Shown piece after piece: positions 2,246 to 63,265 of a DNA stretch of 64,000 bases. A program made the translations under genes and the position numbers. Position 1 is the first letter of the stretch. The number at the start of each line of letters is the position of its first letter. This DNA is from Aquisalimonas lutea. Its GTDB lineage: Bacteria > Pseudomonadota > Gammaproteobacteria > Nitrococcales > Aquisalimonadaceae. The DNA lies in the NCBI RefSeq assembly GCF_030409225.1, contig NZ_JAUFPK010000001.1, forward strand, positions 1,913,566 through 1,977,565, in the 5' to 3' direction. The notes beneath the pieces are model-generated. The model worked only from the letters and a program-made list of their open reading frames with translations. It did no database searches and was not told where the DNA came from.

Positions 2246-3088
2246 TCAGCGGTGCGTGTCGACAAACCAGCGGATCAGCTGACCGGCAATGGACATCTCG
2301 CCGGGCACATCGGGCAGGGCGTCGGGCCGGTACCAGCCGGCATCCAGGATCTCGTCGCCGTCCACGCGGATCTCGCCGCCGGCGTGGTCGGCGATGAACG
2401 CCACCATCAGGGAGTGGGGGAAAGGCCACGGCTGGGAGCCGAAGTACCGGATGTCGCGTACTTCCAGCCCGACCTCCTCGCGTACCTCCCGGCGAACGCA
2501 GCCCTCCAGGGTCTCCCCGGGCTCGGCGAAGCCGGCGAGCACGCTGTAGAAGCCTTCGGGATAGCGCGGCGAGCGTGCCAGAAGGAGCTCCCGGCCGCGC
2601 CGGACCAGCGCCATCATCGCCGGCGTGACCCGCGGGAACTGGGTGTGGCCGCAGCGCGGACAGATCCGTGCCCGTTGATCCGGCGCGTGTTCCGTGGGTG
2701 TCCCGCAGCGGCCGCAGAAGCGGTGATTCCGGTCCCACTCCAGGATCTGGTACGCGCGCCCGGCCAGCAGGAACAGGTCCGTGTCCATGCGGCCGTGCAG
2801 GCGGTACAGGTTGCGCTCGATGATCTCCTCGCCCGCCGCCGGGACGTCACCGGTCACCTCGGCGGCATGACAGGGAACGCCGTCGAGATAGCCCAGGAAG
2901 TGTGGTGCGGGCGCGTCGCCGGCGCGCGGGTCCGCAGGCCCGTACAGGGGCCGCAGCCGGCGCTCGTCGACGCGGGCGAGGAGCATGTCCCGGCCGCGGA
3001 ACAGAAACCACCATCCGGGGGCCACCGGTGCGGTCGGTACGATCGCCGGCTCGAACCGGCGCTGGTGCTCGAAATCGGGTATTTCCAC
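2246..3088 (-). CDS. nudC: NAD+ diphosphatase / NAD-capped RNA hydrolase NudC
   Basis: The product is 280 residues, close to the ~257 of E. coli NudC. It cleaves NAD(H) to NMN(H) plus AMP and removes NAD caps from RNA. Three features identify it: a zinc ribbon with paired CGRCG and CPRCG at about residues 124-150, the Nudix box GFAEPGETLEGCVRREV continuing REEVGL, and the diagnostic SQPWPFPHS that follows the box in NudC and separates it from other Nudix enzymes. It is convergent with the methyltransferase-like gene (16-bp gap) and lies downstream of the flavodoxin-type gene on the same strand. Confidence 0.95.
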   Translation of the reverse strand: MEIPDFEHQRRFEPAIVPTAPVAPGWWFLFRGRDMLLARVDERRLRPLYGPADPRAGDAPAPHFLGYLDGVPCHAAEVTGDVPAAGEEIIERNLYRLHGRMDTDLFLLAGRAYQILEWDRNHRFCGRCGTPTEHAPDQRARICPRCGHTQFPRVTPAMMALVRRGRELLLARSPRYPEGFYSVLAGFAEPGETLEGCVRREVREEVGLEVRDIRYFGSQPWPFPHSLMVAFIADHAGGEIRVDGDEILDAGWYRPDALPDVPGEMSIAGQLIRWFVDTHR

Positions 3089-3212
3089 AGGGGCATCCTG
3101 GTCGTGGGATGGACTTGGCCGTCGACGCTCCGCGCGGTCACCGCGGGGCGTGTCGACAGGCCCTACGAATTCAACCCGACACCGTCACCTTCTGGCAAGG
3201 GACCGACAGCCA

Positions 3213-3683
3213 CTACAGGATGCCGGCATCCAGGCCGGCCGCCATGTACAGGCCCAGCTCCTCGCAGTCCTCGACGAACTGCTCCTGGAAGGTACCGCGG
3301 CACAGCAGGGGCTCCTGGGCCGGCTGCCAGCGCAGGCCGGTGACGATGCTCTCCACGGCCCGGCGCGTCCCGGTGCCGTCGCGCCCGGCGCGGATGTAGA
3401 GCGCGTACGGCAGGCCCTGGGTCTCCTCCAGGCATGGGTAGTAGATGCGGTCGAAGAAGTCCTTGAGGGCGCCGCTCATGTATCCCAGGTTCTCGGTGGT
3501 CCCGAGGATGACGGCGTTGGCCCACAGGACGTCGTCGGGTCCGGCTTCCAGCGGCGGGACGTGGCGCGCCTCGACGTTATCGACGTCCGGGTGCCGGGCT
3601 CCGCGCAGCACGGCATCCACCAGCTTGCGGGTATTGGGGGAGGGCGCGTGGGCCACCACCAGCAGGTGCTTGCTCTCGCTCAT
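3213..3683 (-). CDS. flavodoxin / NADPH-dependent FMN reductase family protein
   Basis: The 156-residue product begins HLLVVAHAPSPNTRKLVDAV, a flavodoxin-fold phosphate-binding loop (S-P-N-T-R-K) that would hold the FMN phosphate. It continues with ANAVILGTTENLGYMSGALK, the family's flavin-ring region with Gly-Tyr-Met-Ser-Gly-x-Lys. Members reduce quinones, azo compounds or bound FMN. A start much further upstream is in frame, but the ATG at 3683 places the beta-1 strand at the N-terminus as in the family. The dispersed repeat motif TCAGCGTTTCCTTA lies in its upstream region. Confidence 0.85.
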   Translation of the reverse strand: MSESKHLLVVAHAPSPNTRKLVDAVLRGARHPDVDNVEARHVPPLEAGPDDVLWANAVILGTTENLGYMSGALKDFFDRIYYPCLEETQGLPYALYIRAGRDGTGTRRAVESIVTGLRWQPAQEPLLCRGTFQEQFVEDCEELGLYMAAGLDAGIL

Positions 3684-3749
3684 GGGCTTGTCCCCGTTGT
3701 GATCGCGGCGCGGTCCCTTCAAGGTACTAACCTTTCGGGACCCATTGCC

Positions 3750-5391: not shown

Positions 5392-6993
<1,602 letters not shown>

Positions 6994-13804: not shown

Positions 13805-14986
13805 ATGGCCGGCGGGCTTCCCTACTGGCGGCTGTCCGCCTTCTACGCCTGCTTTTTCGCCGTGCTGGGCGGGCTGGCGCCCTACCTGGGCCCGTACCTG
13901 AATGCCCGCGGCTTCTCGGCCGCCGAGATCGGGCAGCTCATCGCCATTCTTCATGCCACCAAGATCGTCGCCCCCAATGTCTGGGGCCTGATTGCGGACC
14001 GCACGGGCCGGCGCATGACGGTGGTGCGCTTCGGTGCCCTGGCGGCGCTGGTGAGCTTCGCGGGCCTGCTGCCGGGCGGCGGCTTCTGGTGGCTGGCGCT
14101 GGTCATCGCGCTGTTCAGCTTTTTCTGGAACGCGGCGCTGCCCCAGTTCGAGGCCAATACCATGAACCACCTGGGGCAGGGGGATCACGGCTACAGCCGC
14201 ATCCGGCTGTGGGGCTCGGTGGGGTTCATCGTCTCGGTGGTGGGCTTCGGCGAGCTCATCGACCGCTTCGGCGTGACCATCCTGCCGTGGCTGCTGCTGG
14301 TGCTGTTCGCCGGGCTGTGGGTGTCCAGCCAGATGGCGCCCGAGGCGCGGCAGGCCCCCGGCCGCCAGGTGAGCGATCCCATTCTGCGGGTGCTGTTCCG
14401 GCCGGACGTGATCGGTTTCTTCCTGGCCTGCTTTCTTCTCAAGGCCAGCCATGGCCCCTATTACGCGTTCTTCAGCATCTACCTGGAGGAGACGGGCTAC
14501 AGCAGCAGCATGATCGGCGTGCTGTGGGCGGTGGGCGTGGTGGCGGAGATCGTGCTGTTCCTGGTCATGCATCGCCTGCTGCCGCGCTTCGGGGCGCGGG
14601 TGCTGATGACCGCGGCCATGTGCCTGTCGGCGCTGCGCTGGGTGCTCATCGCCCTGGCGCCGCAGCTCCTGCCGGTGCTGCTGTTCGCCCAGACGCTGCA
14701 CGCGGCCTCGTTCGGCGTCTACCACGCGGTGGGCATCGCCCTGGTGAACCGCTATTTCGTGGGTGCCAACCAGGGCCGCGGCCAGGCGCTTTACAGCAGC
14801 ATCACCTTCGGCGCCGGCGTGGCCGCCGGGAGCCTGGCCAGCGGCCTGCTCTGGGATGTCGTCGGCGGCAGCGCCACCTTCTACCTGGGCGCCCTGGTTG
14901 CCGCACTGGCCGGCGTCGTCGCCGTGGCCAGCTTGCCCGGGCGGGCGGCGGAAGAGCAGCAAGCGGTCATGGCCCAGGGGCGGTAG
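13805..14986 (+). CDS. MFS transporter (MFS_1-like, HcaT/PPP type)
   Basis: The 393-residue product has twelve membrane segments. The N-terminus YWRLSAFYACFFAVLGGLAP and the loop WGLIADRTGRRMTVVRFG (MFS motif A) match the MFS_1-like group typified by 3-phenylpropionate permease HcaT. The central FEANTMNHLGQGDHGYSRIR and LWGSVGFI are also characteristic. Substrate is unknown. It directly follows aroC by 3 bp. The downstream gap holds two folded repeats, so its 3' end is followed by strong secondary structure. Confidence 0.88.
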   Translation: MAGGLPYWRLSAFYACFFAVLGGLAPYLGPYLNARGFSAAEIGQLIAILHATKIVAPNVWGLIADRTGRRMTVVRFGALAALVSFAGLLPGGGFWWLALVIALFSFFWNAALPQFEANTMNHLGQGDHGYSRIRLWGSVGFIVSVVGFGELIDRFGVTILPWLLLVLFAGLWVSSQMAPEARQAPGRQVSDPILRVLFRPDVIGFFLACFLLKASHGPYYAFFSIYLEETGYSSSMIGVLWAVGVVAEIVLFLVMHRLLPRFGARVLMTAAMCLSALRWVLIALAPQLLPVLLFAQTLHAASFGVYHAVGIALVNRYFVGANQGRGQALYSSITFGAGVAAGSLASGLLWDVVGGSATFYLGALVAALAGVVAVASLPGRAAEEQQAVMAQGR

Positions 14987-15002
14987 GGCTCGCGGTAGGG
15001 TC

Positions 15003-15227
15003 GGATCGAGGTGTTGGCGATGCCGTTGGGGCTCCGGAGCTCCGCTTACGGTACCCGGCTTCGGTTGAAGCCGGGTACCTACCCTGCGCTCCGGCCTGGC
15101 CGAGCGACAGCACGTCCCTGTGCTGACGCTCGGTTGCTTCATCCCTGAAGCAACCCCTTCGGGGCCGGGCGGCCTGCGCTCCGGCGCTGCGCAAGTCGCC
15201 CCAACGGCATCGCCAACACCTCGATCC
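15003..15227 (-). repeat. multi-branched palindromic element, copy A
   Basis: A perfect 29-bp outer stem pairs 15003-15031 with 15199-15227. Inside are three hairpins: a 13-bp stem at 15050-15079, a stem around CAGCAC...GTGCTG at 15102-15131, and a 10-bp stem at 15132-15155. On the minus strand the last two have loops GGGAC and GGGA. The core matches copy B in reverse orientation (for example GCGCCGGAGCGCAGGCCG and the CAGCAC hairpin), whereas the outer stem and two of the hairpins have entirely different sequence but the same pairing. Confidence 0.85.
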
Positions 15228-15351
15228 GCCGAGGCTCCGACGCCGTGGGGCTCGCGGTAACCTGCGGGGGACTGCCGACGGCAGCCCTGGGGTGAACCTT
15301 TAGATTCGTCGAGACCGGGCATGGCAGACGGGAAACGGCGAGTCGCTGCCC

Positions 15352-15585
15352 GTCAGATCCCGGGTCGGGGGCATTGGGGTGGGCGACTAGCGTAGCGCCG
15401 GAGCGCAGGCCGTCCGGCCCCGTCAGGGGTGGCCGCAGGGACGCGGCCACCGGCTGTCAGCACAGGGATGTGCTGTCAGCCGGCCAGGCCGGAGCGGAGG
15501 GTAGGAAGCCAGCATTGCCGGCAATGCTGGCTTCCGTAAGCGGAGATCCGGAGCCCACCCCAATGCCCCCGACCCGGGATCTGAC
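15352..15585 (+). repeat. multi-branched palindromic element, copy B
   Basis: A perfect 33-bp outer stem pairs 15352-15384 with 15553-15585. Inside are a 9-bp hairpin at 15428-15451 (loop AGGGAC), a hairpin at 15452-15481 with stem GGCTG, a T-T mismatch, CAGCACA, and loop GGGA, and a near-perfect 16-bp palindrome at 15504-15535. It is homologous to copy A in inverted orientation, with compensating changes in three of four stems. The segment ACAGGGATGT at 15462-15471 matches the core of the known CsrA/RsmA binding consensus. Confidence 0.85.
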
Positions 15586-15714
15586 CCCTCGAAAGGCACT
15601 TGACCTGCACGAGCCGACACCTCATCTACCGATACAGCGGAGGATCCGAATCCGTTATACTTACGGGTTGGAAACGGGTTCAGGCGTGGTTTCGCCACCA
15701 TCGGGTGAGTACAT

Positions 15715-17118
15715 ATGGCAGGCAGGACACTCTACGAGAAGCTCTGGGATGATCACGTCGTTCGTGACAACGAGGACGGTACCTCGCTTCTGTACATCGA
15801 CCGCCAGCTGGTCCACGAGGTGACCTCGCCCCAGGCGTTCGAGGGCCTGCGCCTGGCTGGCCGGCAGCCCTGGCGCACCGACGCCAACCTGGCGGTGGCC
15901 GACCACAACGTGCCCACCACCGACCGCCGCGGCGGCATCGCCGATCCCGTCTCGCGGCTGCAGGTGGATACCCTGGACGACAACTGCCGGACCTACGGCA
16001 TCACCGAGTTCGGCATGAACGACCCGCGGCAGGGCATCGTGCACGTCATCGGCCCCGAGCAGGGCGCGACCCTGCCCGGCATGACCATTGTCTGCGGCGA
16101 CTCCCACACCTCCACCCAGGGTGCCATGGGCGCCATGGCCTTCGGCATCGGCACCTCCGAGGTGGAGCACGCGCTGGCCACGCAGACGCTGGTGCAGCAG
16201 AAGAGCAAGACCATGCTCATCAGCGTCGACGGTGAGCCGGGCCCCGGCGTGACCGCCAAGGACATCATCCTGCACATCATCGGCACCATCGGCACCGCTG
16301 GCGGTACCGGCTACGCCATCGAGTACGGCGGCTCGGCGGTGCGCAACCTGTCCATGGAAGGGCGCATGACCATCTGCAACATGTCCATCGAGGCCGGCGC
16401 CCGGTGCGGCATGATCGCGGTGGACGATACCACCATCGACTACATCGCCAACCGGCCCTTCGCCCCCACAGGCGAGCAGTGGGAGCAGGCCGTGGCCTAC
16501 TGGAAGACCCTGCACAGCGATCCGGACGCGGCCTTCGACCGGGTGGTGCACATCGACGCCGCGACGATCCAGCCCCAGGTCTCCTGGGGCACGTCGCCGG
16601 AGATGGTCGTGCCCATCCACGGCAGCGTGCCGAACCCGTTCAAGGAGACCGACGAGGCCAGGCGCACCGCCTACGCCCGCGCGCTGGAGTACATGGGCCT
16701 CGAGCCCGAGACGCCGATGACCGATATCTGGCTGGACAAGATCTTCATCGGCTCCTGCACCAACGCGCGCATCTCCGATCTGCGCGAGGCCGCGCGCGTC
16801 GTCGAGGGGCGCCGCATCGCCGACAACATCAAGCTGGCCATGGTGGTGCCGGGCTCCGGCCTGGTGAAGAAGCAGGCCGAGGACGAGGGCCTGGACCGGG
16901 TCTTCAAGGAGGCCGGCTTCGAGTGGCGCGAGGCGGGCTGCTCCATGTGCCTGGGCATGAACCCGGACCAGCTCTCGCCCGGCGAGCGCTGCGCGTCCAC
17001 GTCCAACCGCAACTTCGAGGGCCGGCAGGGCCAGGGCGGCCGGACCCACCTGGTGAGCCCCGCCATGGCGGCGGCGGCGGCCGTGGCCGGTCACTTCGTC
17101 GACGTCAGGGAATTCTGA
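15715..17118 (+). CDS. leuC: 3-isopropylmalate dehydratase large subunit
   Basis: The 467-residue product forms isopropylmalate isomerase with LeuD in leucine synthesis. It is an aconitase-family protein: the 4Fe-4S ligands are Cys 348 in [10 protein letters not shown] and Cys 409 and Cys 412 in CSMCLGMN. The N-terminal [12 protein letters not shown] and [19 protein letters not shown] are family signatures. leuD follows after a single base, consistent with coupled synthesis of the heterodimer. Confidence 0.97.
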
Positions 17119-63009: not shown

Positions 63010-63154
63010 GATTCAGTTCTCCATTTTGTATCATTTCCGGTGAGTGTAGCAGGCATCGCGGCGCTGCTGTATGCCGCCGGCTTGCACTCGCGGACGCCAG
63101 GCCGGATCATTGCGGCAGTCCTCGTGGTCCCCGGCGTTTCGGGCGGATCAGGGG

Positions 63155-63265
63155 CCGCCGGTCGGGTGTTCCGGTCACGGACACGCTGTGAATCCATCCA
63201 TGGACGCTCGACACCGGCCATCCATGGCCGGTGACGGTCCGTGACCGGAACCCCCGACCGGCGGC
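63155..63265. repeat. palindromic element before argG
   Basis: A 29-bp outer stem with one mismatch pairs 63155-63182 with 63237-63264. Inside, CACCGGCC/GGCCGGTG (63211-63232) forms a hairpin with loop ATCCAT, and TCCATCCATGGA forms a second. On the minus strand the loops read ATGGAT. The layout recalls the elements at 15003-15227 and 15352-15585. It fills about a third of the 315-bp divergent adh-argG gap; the rest holds no recognised signal. Confidence 0.75.

Follow-up and report, generated by a model that had tools for sequence, protein, structure and literature searches.

The name TwoAYGGAY (Rfam accession RF01731) refers to a pair of neighbouring hairpins that both have AYGGAY loops on the same strand. 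The motif was originally listed as a probable RNA of the human gut, Gammaproteobacteria and Clostridiales (PMC2864571). It is proposed in the RMfam paper to be a CsrA-binding RNA, and a figure legend there describes its external stem as not well conserved (PMC4333381); the Rfam 15 paper mentions two additional covarying pairs obtained from R-scape (PMC11701678). RF01731 belongs to clan CL00106, a label also given for RsmW and RsmY. For CsrA, SELEX gave the consensus RUACARGGAUGU, in which GGA occupies the loop of a hairpin (PMC4347634). At the DNA level, template switching is described as a process that homogenises arms and inverts spacers (PMC8604942).

In this study, we analyzed a stretch of 64,000 nucleotides from Aquisalimonas lutea (the window), in which an initial annotation had noticed an inverted pair of multi-branched elements. 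This observation was confirmed as a whole, both the fold and the covariation being real. The pair, which consists of element A (15002-15228) and, in inverted orientation, element B (15352-15585), is flanked by an MFS gene (13805-14986) and leuC (15715-17118; gene names by inspection). In each core, one strand (minus in A, plus in B) carries two neighbouring hairpins with hexaloops of the form C-[ANGGAY]-G, and a long outer stem encloses both. Like TwoAYGGAY, the elements combine two adjacent GGA-hexaloop hairpins on one strand with a poorly conserved outer stem. The best explanation appears to be that A and B represent a dispersed element which is related to TwoAYGGAY RNAs and was amplified within the genus, and that the family is a probable set of CsrA-binding cassettes whose arms are matched by template switching and whose cores are homogenised. 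We give this joint reading, based on sequence comparison, a probability of roughly 0.55. The features of the pair are as follows:

15002-15032, plus strand: left outer arm of element A, 31 bp, perfect match to 15198-15228
15033-15197, plus strand: core of element A, 165 nt, four hairpins, GGA loops on the minus strand
15050-15079, plus strand: hairpin H1 of element A (GGTACCCGGCTTC/GAAGCCGGGTACC), perfect stem
15102-15131, minus strand: hairpin H2 of element A, hexaloop AGGGAC at 15114-15119 (minus strand), A-A mismatch in the stem
15132-15155, minus strand: hairpin H3 of element A, hexaloop AGGGAT at 15141-15146 (minus strand)
15198-15228, plus strand: right outer arm of element A, 31 bp, partner of 15002-15032
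15229-15351, no strand: spacer of the divergent pair, no sigma-70-like promoter and no terminator in a consensus scan
15352-15384, minus strand: outer arm of element B, 33 bp, perfect match to 15553-15585
15385-15552, minus strand: core of element B, 168 nt, GGA loops on the plus strand
15428-15451, plus strand: hairpin H3 of element B, hexaloop AGGGAC at 15437-15442
15452-15481, plus strand: hairpin H2 of element B, hexaloop AGGGAT at 15464-15469, T-T mismatch in the stem
15504-15535, minus strand: hairpin H1 of element B, perfect stem
15553-15585, minus strand: leuC-proximal outer arm of element B, 33 bp, partner of 15352-15384

The initial annotation had given perfect outer stems of 29 and 33 bp; both are indeed perfect and the length for B holds, but the stem of A measures 31 bp. 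Hairpins at matching positions were found as described, H1 being perfect in both elements, and each core contains a small fourth hairpin (CCCCTTCGGGG type) besides H1, H2 and H3. The likeness of the core segments was also borne out, since stretches of the two cores are inverted repeats (77% over 100 nt). The stem said to have changed on both sides is present (GGTTGCTTC/GAAGCAACC versus GGTGGCCGC/GCGGCCACC), and the T-T/A-A mismatch occupies the same place in both elements, recurring as A-A in 34 of the 45 copies parsed below. On the other hand, to call the outer arms of A and B unrelated was slightly too strong: they are very diverged, but agree at 15 of 31 positions when aligned from the inner end and share a weak family frame.

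The fold energy of A as DNA had a z-score of -13.6, with none of 200 shuffles as good, and the RNA folds gave z-scores of -12.6 (A, minus strand), -13.1 (B, minus strand) and -13.2 (B, plus strand), again with 0/200 shuffles each. In B, 24 nt separate the GGA triplet of H3 from that of H2, as in 45/45 parsed copies. When A and B are folded as a single RNA, they pair with each other in the structure of minimum energy, so read-through could mask some of the loop sites. A consensus scan of 14980-15740 revealed no sigma-70-like promoter and no terminator.

A dispersed family and its relation to TwoAYGGAY

A DNA search of the window's genome (G000) revealed copies spread across contigs. For wider comparison, a profile of H3 and H2 on the GGA strand (R1) was built from Aquisalimonas copies alone and run with strict filters (E <= 0.001) against 54 genomes of the order, including four Aquisalimonas congeners (G001-G004). 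Matches were present in 14 of these genomes, namely all five of the genus, none of the nine others in the family and nine of the remaining 40. G000 had 32 matches and the congeners 31 (G002, 15; G001, nine; G004, four; G003, three); outside the family, matches included 11 in G029, six in G037, five in G020, four in G034 and three in G039. The presence or absence of copies differed between species, and at least three elements at orthologous sites are older than the split between G000 and G002. In this respect the initial annotation was right: a structured family stands in place of a one-off pair, with many copies in this genome and in relatives whose stems are maintained and whose loops look selected.

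We parsed 45 Aquisalimonas elements, each with two TCC anchors and an arm score of at least 18, a procedure that leaves out armless copies (e.g., L039) and copies cut by contig ends. Two loci (L028 and L030) were poorly parsed, and their elements re-entered via L023 and L025. Of the parsed elements, 36 formed alignment A1; a further alignment, A3, held 26 of 32 distinct segments.

Besides these elements (type I), a shorter type II was found, likewise by the TCC anchor, with arms of 18-37 bp as parsed and a core of 53-56 nt containing two TCC/GGA hairpins. G000 has 17 strong type II matches, which together with its 32 type I matches give a total of about 50 copies. Among 20 parsed type II elements (18 from G000 and two from G002), 12 had perfect arms, and the layout of the hairpin loops was the same as in type I (n = 20). 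At five loci, type I and type II form a composite, about 92-98 bases apart. One type II element is present near the end of the window:

63154-63265, plus strand: type II element, arms of 29 bp (one mismatch) around a 54-nt core with two TCC/GGA hairpins

The kinship with TwoAYGGAY was approached from both sides. First, an Rfam scan of the whole window gave nothing at gathering score, RF01731 included; between 14950 and 15700, RF01731 had no match with an E value of 5 or less, and it had none at E <= 1 under strict filters in the five genomes of the genus. Order-wide, RF01731 had three matches in two genomes, all below the 43-bit cut-off; R1 overlapped two of these sub-threshold matches (G020:C11, 37.4 bits, and G029:C1:1925.6k, 31.9 bits) and missed the third (G029:C1:229.7k). 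Second, at least 80 loci were collected by pattern fetch and R1 was run on 67, with seven Aquisalimonas loci and six others, judged by eye to be coding chance matches, left out. Among the matches listed, 18 relative loci were scanned with RF01731, which scored in five of them (Psychromonas and Kangiella), at 10 places, and had no match in the other 13. R1 overlapped eight of the 10 places, in L092, L095, L112, L123 and L140 at E <= 0.1, and two of the four places that lack the pattern used for fetching. The initial annotation had held its reading to be incompatible with a known Rfam entry, and here the outcome was mixed: RF01731 scores in relatives, with sub-threshold matches in two genomes of the same order, but the copies in the window have no match.

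The order of the hairpins in the elements is that of the Psychromonas and Kangiella members of RF01731, and two adjacent ANGGAY hairpins were present in 36/36 copies of A1. The Aquisalimonas copies differ from TwoAYGGAY in being sub-threshold and in having mostly AGGGAY loops, with C or U at the second position in only 12 of 72 loops. They also add H1 and H4, arms of 26-44 bp (perfect in 28 of 45 copies) and a high copy number of about 30 plus the 17 strong type II elements. Because they fail the RF01731 score, we filed them not as members but as a related variant: the family appears to be a relative of TwoAYGGAY with many copies and hypervariable arms, seemingly built to work in the same way. 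The orphan motif would thereby be tied to a dispersed repeat family, and its CsrA hypothesis would gain a host genus. Among the literature listings searched, no title or opening abstract described these elements as a dispersed family; the papers on CsrA sRNAs of Alcanivorax (PMC9788540), Rfam 12 (PMC4383904) and the TAACTGA repeats of Beggiatoaceae (PMC4679880) deal with different things.

Outer arms, cores and the copying mechanism

The outer arms were matched and hypervariable at the same time. Apart from the copies with perfect arms, 13 of the 45 had one mismatch, two had two and two had three; all 45 arm sequences differed, and 1514 of 1537 arm cells were Watson-Crick pairs. Standard pairing held for 99.3% of the arm cells in A1; both sides had changed in 23 of 24 arm pairs, and most arm positions displayed all four Watson-Crick types. 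When H2 and H3 were included, 98.8% of 1584 cells were paired. Slid partners gave 34-48% paired, and four of the five measures of the pairing test were reached by 0/500 shuffles (the fifth by two). Although diverged, the arms share a G-rich bias on the left and often a GTC...GGGC frame, and the family-wide mean arm identity was 0.38-0.47 in five bins of core identity versus 0.35 for shuffled arms. Core identity was no predictor of arm identity, since seven pairs with identical cores (in the columns compared) had arms that were 0.35-0.7 identical. Matched arms were absent at L039, and at L041 the two arms fail to match. Outside the genus, long matched arms were found in 10 of the 11 copies of G029 (24-55 bp, up to three mismatches), where they were less variable (eight of the ten alike), and the single copies inspected in G037 and G039 had perfect arms of 44 and 56 bp; none were found in four copies of G034 and five of G020.

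Such covariation might mean that selection on the transcribed RNA alone maintains the stems, through compensatory evolution and with no homogenisation at the DNA level. Its strength in A1 and the near-invariant, protein-site-like loops agree with this idea, as does a lean of singleton wobbles in the internal hairpins to the GGA strand (6 versus 1, hand count, p = 0.125). However, wobble-type cells made up only about 1% of arm cells and fell on both strands (10 plus versus 17 minus, types I and II together), so that a strand test based on them was not significant (p = 0.25). Moreover, near-identical copies (L005, L009, L022 and others) differed by two-sided arm changes. Several of these were G-C to C-G transversions, for which wobble intermediates alone are insufficient, and no intermediates were observed. 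The arms at the L016 site, described next, also argue against selection on RNA as the sole cause, because they agree at few positions between genomes, yet are matched within each. We therefore consider this explanation unlikely.

At the orthologous site of L016, reading of the sequences indicated that the core is in plus orientation in G000, inverted in G002 and absent in G004. The core in G001 was apparently deleted between two GGGCTCC repeats, leaving a palindromic scar. The left arms agreed between genomes at 14-24 of 42 positions without gaps, and within each genome the two arms were matched, with a 1-base indel between those of G000. Taken together, the two-sided transversions, the scarce unbiased wobbles and the flipped core at L016 mean that paired arm change is not by itself proof of RNA selection; the initial annotation had seen in it the hallmark of a fold under selection, a view that did not hold, since all three features fit template switching. 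At L225 (G001:C170:1000-1300), a lost element seems to have left a scar, in which one complete arm and the outer part of the other are joined at a GGGCTCC repeat.

At three orthologous sites, the cores of G000 and G002 were 77.6, 79.0 and 83.4% identical, whereas the same G000 copies showed median identities of 93.8, 86.1 and 90.9% with paralogues of their own genome, and the same G002 copies 86.5, 90.2 and 82.3%; the alignment compared contains only six copies from G002 and two from G001. The last G002 copy, at the L013/L040 site, was thus no closer to its paralogues (82.3%) than to its orthologue (83.4%), and the cores of a G001/G002 pair (L037/L052) were 94.9% alike. Because paralogues were mostly closer than G000/G002 orthologues at the three sites, cores are homogenised within genomes, and a likeness beyond that expected from vertical descent is most simply attributed to gene conversion or an equivalent process.

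From these patterns we infer that the arms are probably re-matched by DNA template switching. The outer arms would need only complementarity, their sequence drifting almost freely; polymerase template switching between them would re-match the arms and occasionally flip the core, and gene conversion or its equivalent would keep the cores alike between loci. Homogenisation of arms in this way could explain the double changes without selection on RNA. Quasipalindrome correction by template switching likewise involves arm homogenisation and spacer inversion (PMC8604942). However, the yeast spacer inversions in the rows consulted have spacers of 3-5 bp, whereas the elements here belong to a repeat family, and their arms, about 33 bp long, enclose a structured spacer of some 165 nt. 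They offer a natural case of near-total covariation with two-sided transversions and spacer inversion, so covariation tests that assume RNA selection should allow for arm homogenisation. We rejected the possibility that arms are copied from the target at insertion, because the empty site in G004 lacks arm sequence and the arms share a weak family frame.

The dispersal of the family, with its 32 profile matches, the differences in presence and absence between species and the composites of types I and II at five loci could also indicate a non-autonomous DNA transposon (MITE-like), in which the arms would be terminal inverted repeats recognised for movement by a transposase and the hairpins would serve transposition only. 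This is improbable for several reasons. The terminal repeats are not conserved (45/45 arms differ), and three or more elements were already in place before G000 and G002 split. No consistent target-site duplication was seen by eye in 30 loci, which offer no close pre-insertion allele for comparison. Finally, the ORFs between two distant element pairs (L056 and L057) did not look transposase-like by eye and are presumably ordinary metabolic genes.

Loops, possible CsrA binding and genomic context

In the loops of H2 and H3, the cells T, C, C and T were changed in 0/288 cases in A1, whereas N was changed in 14/72 (Fisher p = 5e-11, a value that is too small since the copies are related). Read from the opposite strand, the loops give C-ANGGA(U/C)-G, in agreement with the CsrA consensus. 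The motif [AG]TCCNT was found in both hairpins of 45/45 parsed copies, where parsing itself demanded TCC motifs and long arms. The constancy of the ANGGA positions, while N varies, suggests that the loops look selected. Outside the genus, 54 elements fetched by the H2 pattern had a parsable second hairpin (pattern matches without one of the required length being left out), and H3 carried GGA on the same strand in 41 of these 54 among the matches listed; in the other 13 the H3 loop lacked GGA, five of these having CACGATG.

A gene for CsrA, a global RNA-binding regulator, was present in all five genomes of the genus. Where the GGA strand is transcribed, one CsrA dimer would bind both loops, and the copies would act as distributed CsrA-binding sites, either as a sponge or through local control of flanking transcript ends. 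The elements share ANGGA hairpins of the CsrA-site type with the sRNAs CsrB, RsmX, RsmY, RsmZ and RsmW, but differ from them in that each copy has just two sites, the copies are many and dispersed, and no promoter or terminator consensus was found. Matches to RsmW on the GGA strand of B (22.6 bits, gathering score 52, E = 0.16) and to RsmY on that of A (12.0 bits, gathering score 57, E = 2.5) were at chance level. In addition, a second, divergent csrA-like match (49.5 bits) was noted at G002:C1:477215-477370.

With regard to gene context, the copies are intergenic and often lie just after stop codons. Based on gene calls from a codon-usage script, 23 of the 45 copies were in tandem, 16 in convergent and four in divergent contexts, and two were at contig edges; in tandem contexts, the GGA strand was sense in 14 cases and antisense in nine, so that no clear orientation preference emerged. 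This lack of strand preference with respect to genes, the mostly Watson-Crick arms with wobbles free of strand bias and the flipped core at L016 would all suit a DNA-level structural element without any RNA role, such as a cruciform that serves nucleoid proteins, gyrase or bidirectional termination. On the other hand, such an element would leave unexplained both the constant A and GGA around a varying N and the overlap between R1 and RF01731, and we regard it as quite improbable.

Close neighbours on opposite strands were arranged with their GGA strands pointing apart, as in A and B, in 17 cases and together in two (p = 7e-4, several cases coming from the same genera); five further close neighbours were in tandem. 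The 17 versus 2 count was made by hand for gaps of up to 400 bases, and L152 (E = 0.093) and overlapping matches were left out.

REP, REPIN and BIME sequences are likewise intergenic and palindromic and occur in inverted pairs, often after stop codons. Our elements are longer and multi-branched. Although Y1_Tnp matches were present in 5/5 genomes of the genus, mobilisation of the elements as a REP/REPIN family by a RAYT (Y1 transposase) is very unlikely and largely disfavoured, because none of the 10 (of 13) Y1 matches viewed with flanks lay beside a long-armed type I or type II element. Other palindromes (GTAGGGCGGACC..., GTGGGAGGGGCTTCAGCCCC... and others) were present in seven of these ten Y1 regions, with none at the cut-off used in the other three, and single TCC/GGA motifs occurred in five of the ten. 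REP-type palindromes of the GTGGGAGGGGCTTCAGCCCC... and GTAGGGCGGACC... types were noted beside Y1/RAYT-like genes at L210 1677-1751, L212 1748-1833, L213 147-314, L214 1346-1513 and L217 975-1064.

Returning to the family as a set of CsrA-binding cassettes, a more far-reaching and only tentative suggestion from these comparisons is that many Gammaproteobacteria might carry a distributed, multi-locus CsrA titration network. In each genome, it would consist of dozens of two-site cassettes that are interchangeable and often form divergent inverted pairs, with cores kept alike by inter-locus conversion and stems matched by template switching. If this were true, the covariation would largely be a product of DNA copying, by which covariation-based RNA discovery could have been either misled or helped.

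Two observations were made in Psychromonas. A contig of Psychromonas marina (L123) carries four RF01731 elements in the order -,+,-,+ within about 1 kb (2503-3555). At L146 (about 3728-3746) and L140 (about 5915-5933), the second hairpin is seemingly interrupted by a common, insertion-like stretch (...ACTATGCTGTCGCATAATTCGC).
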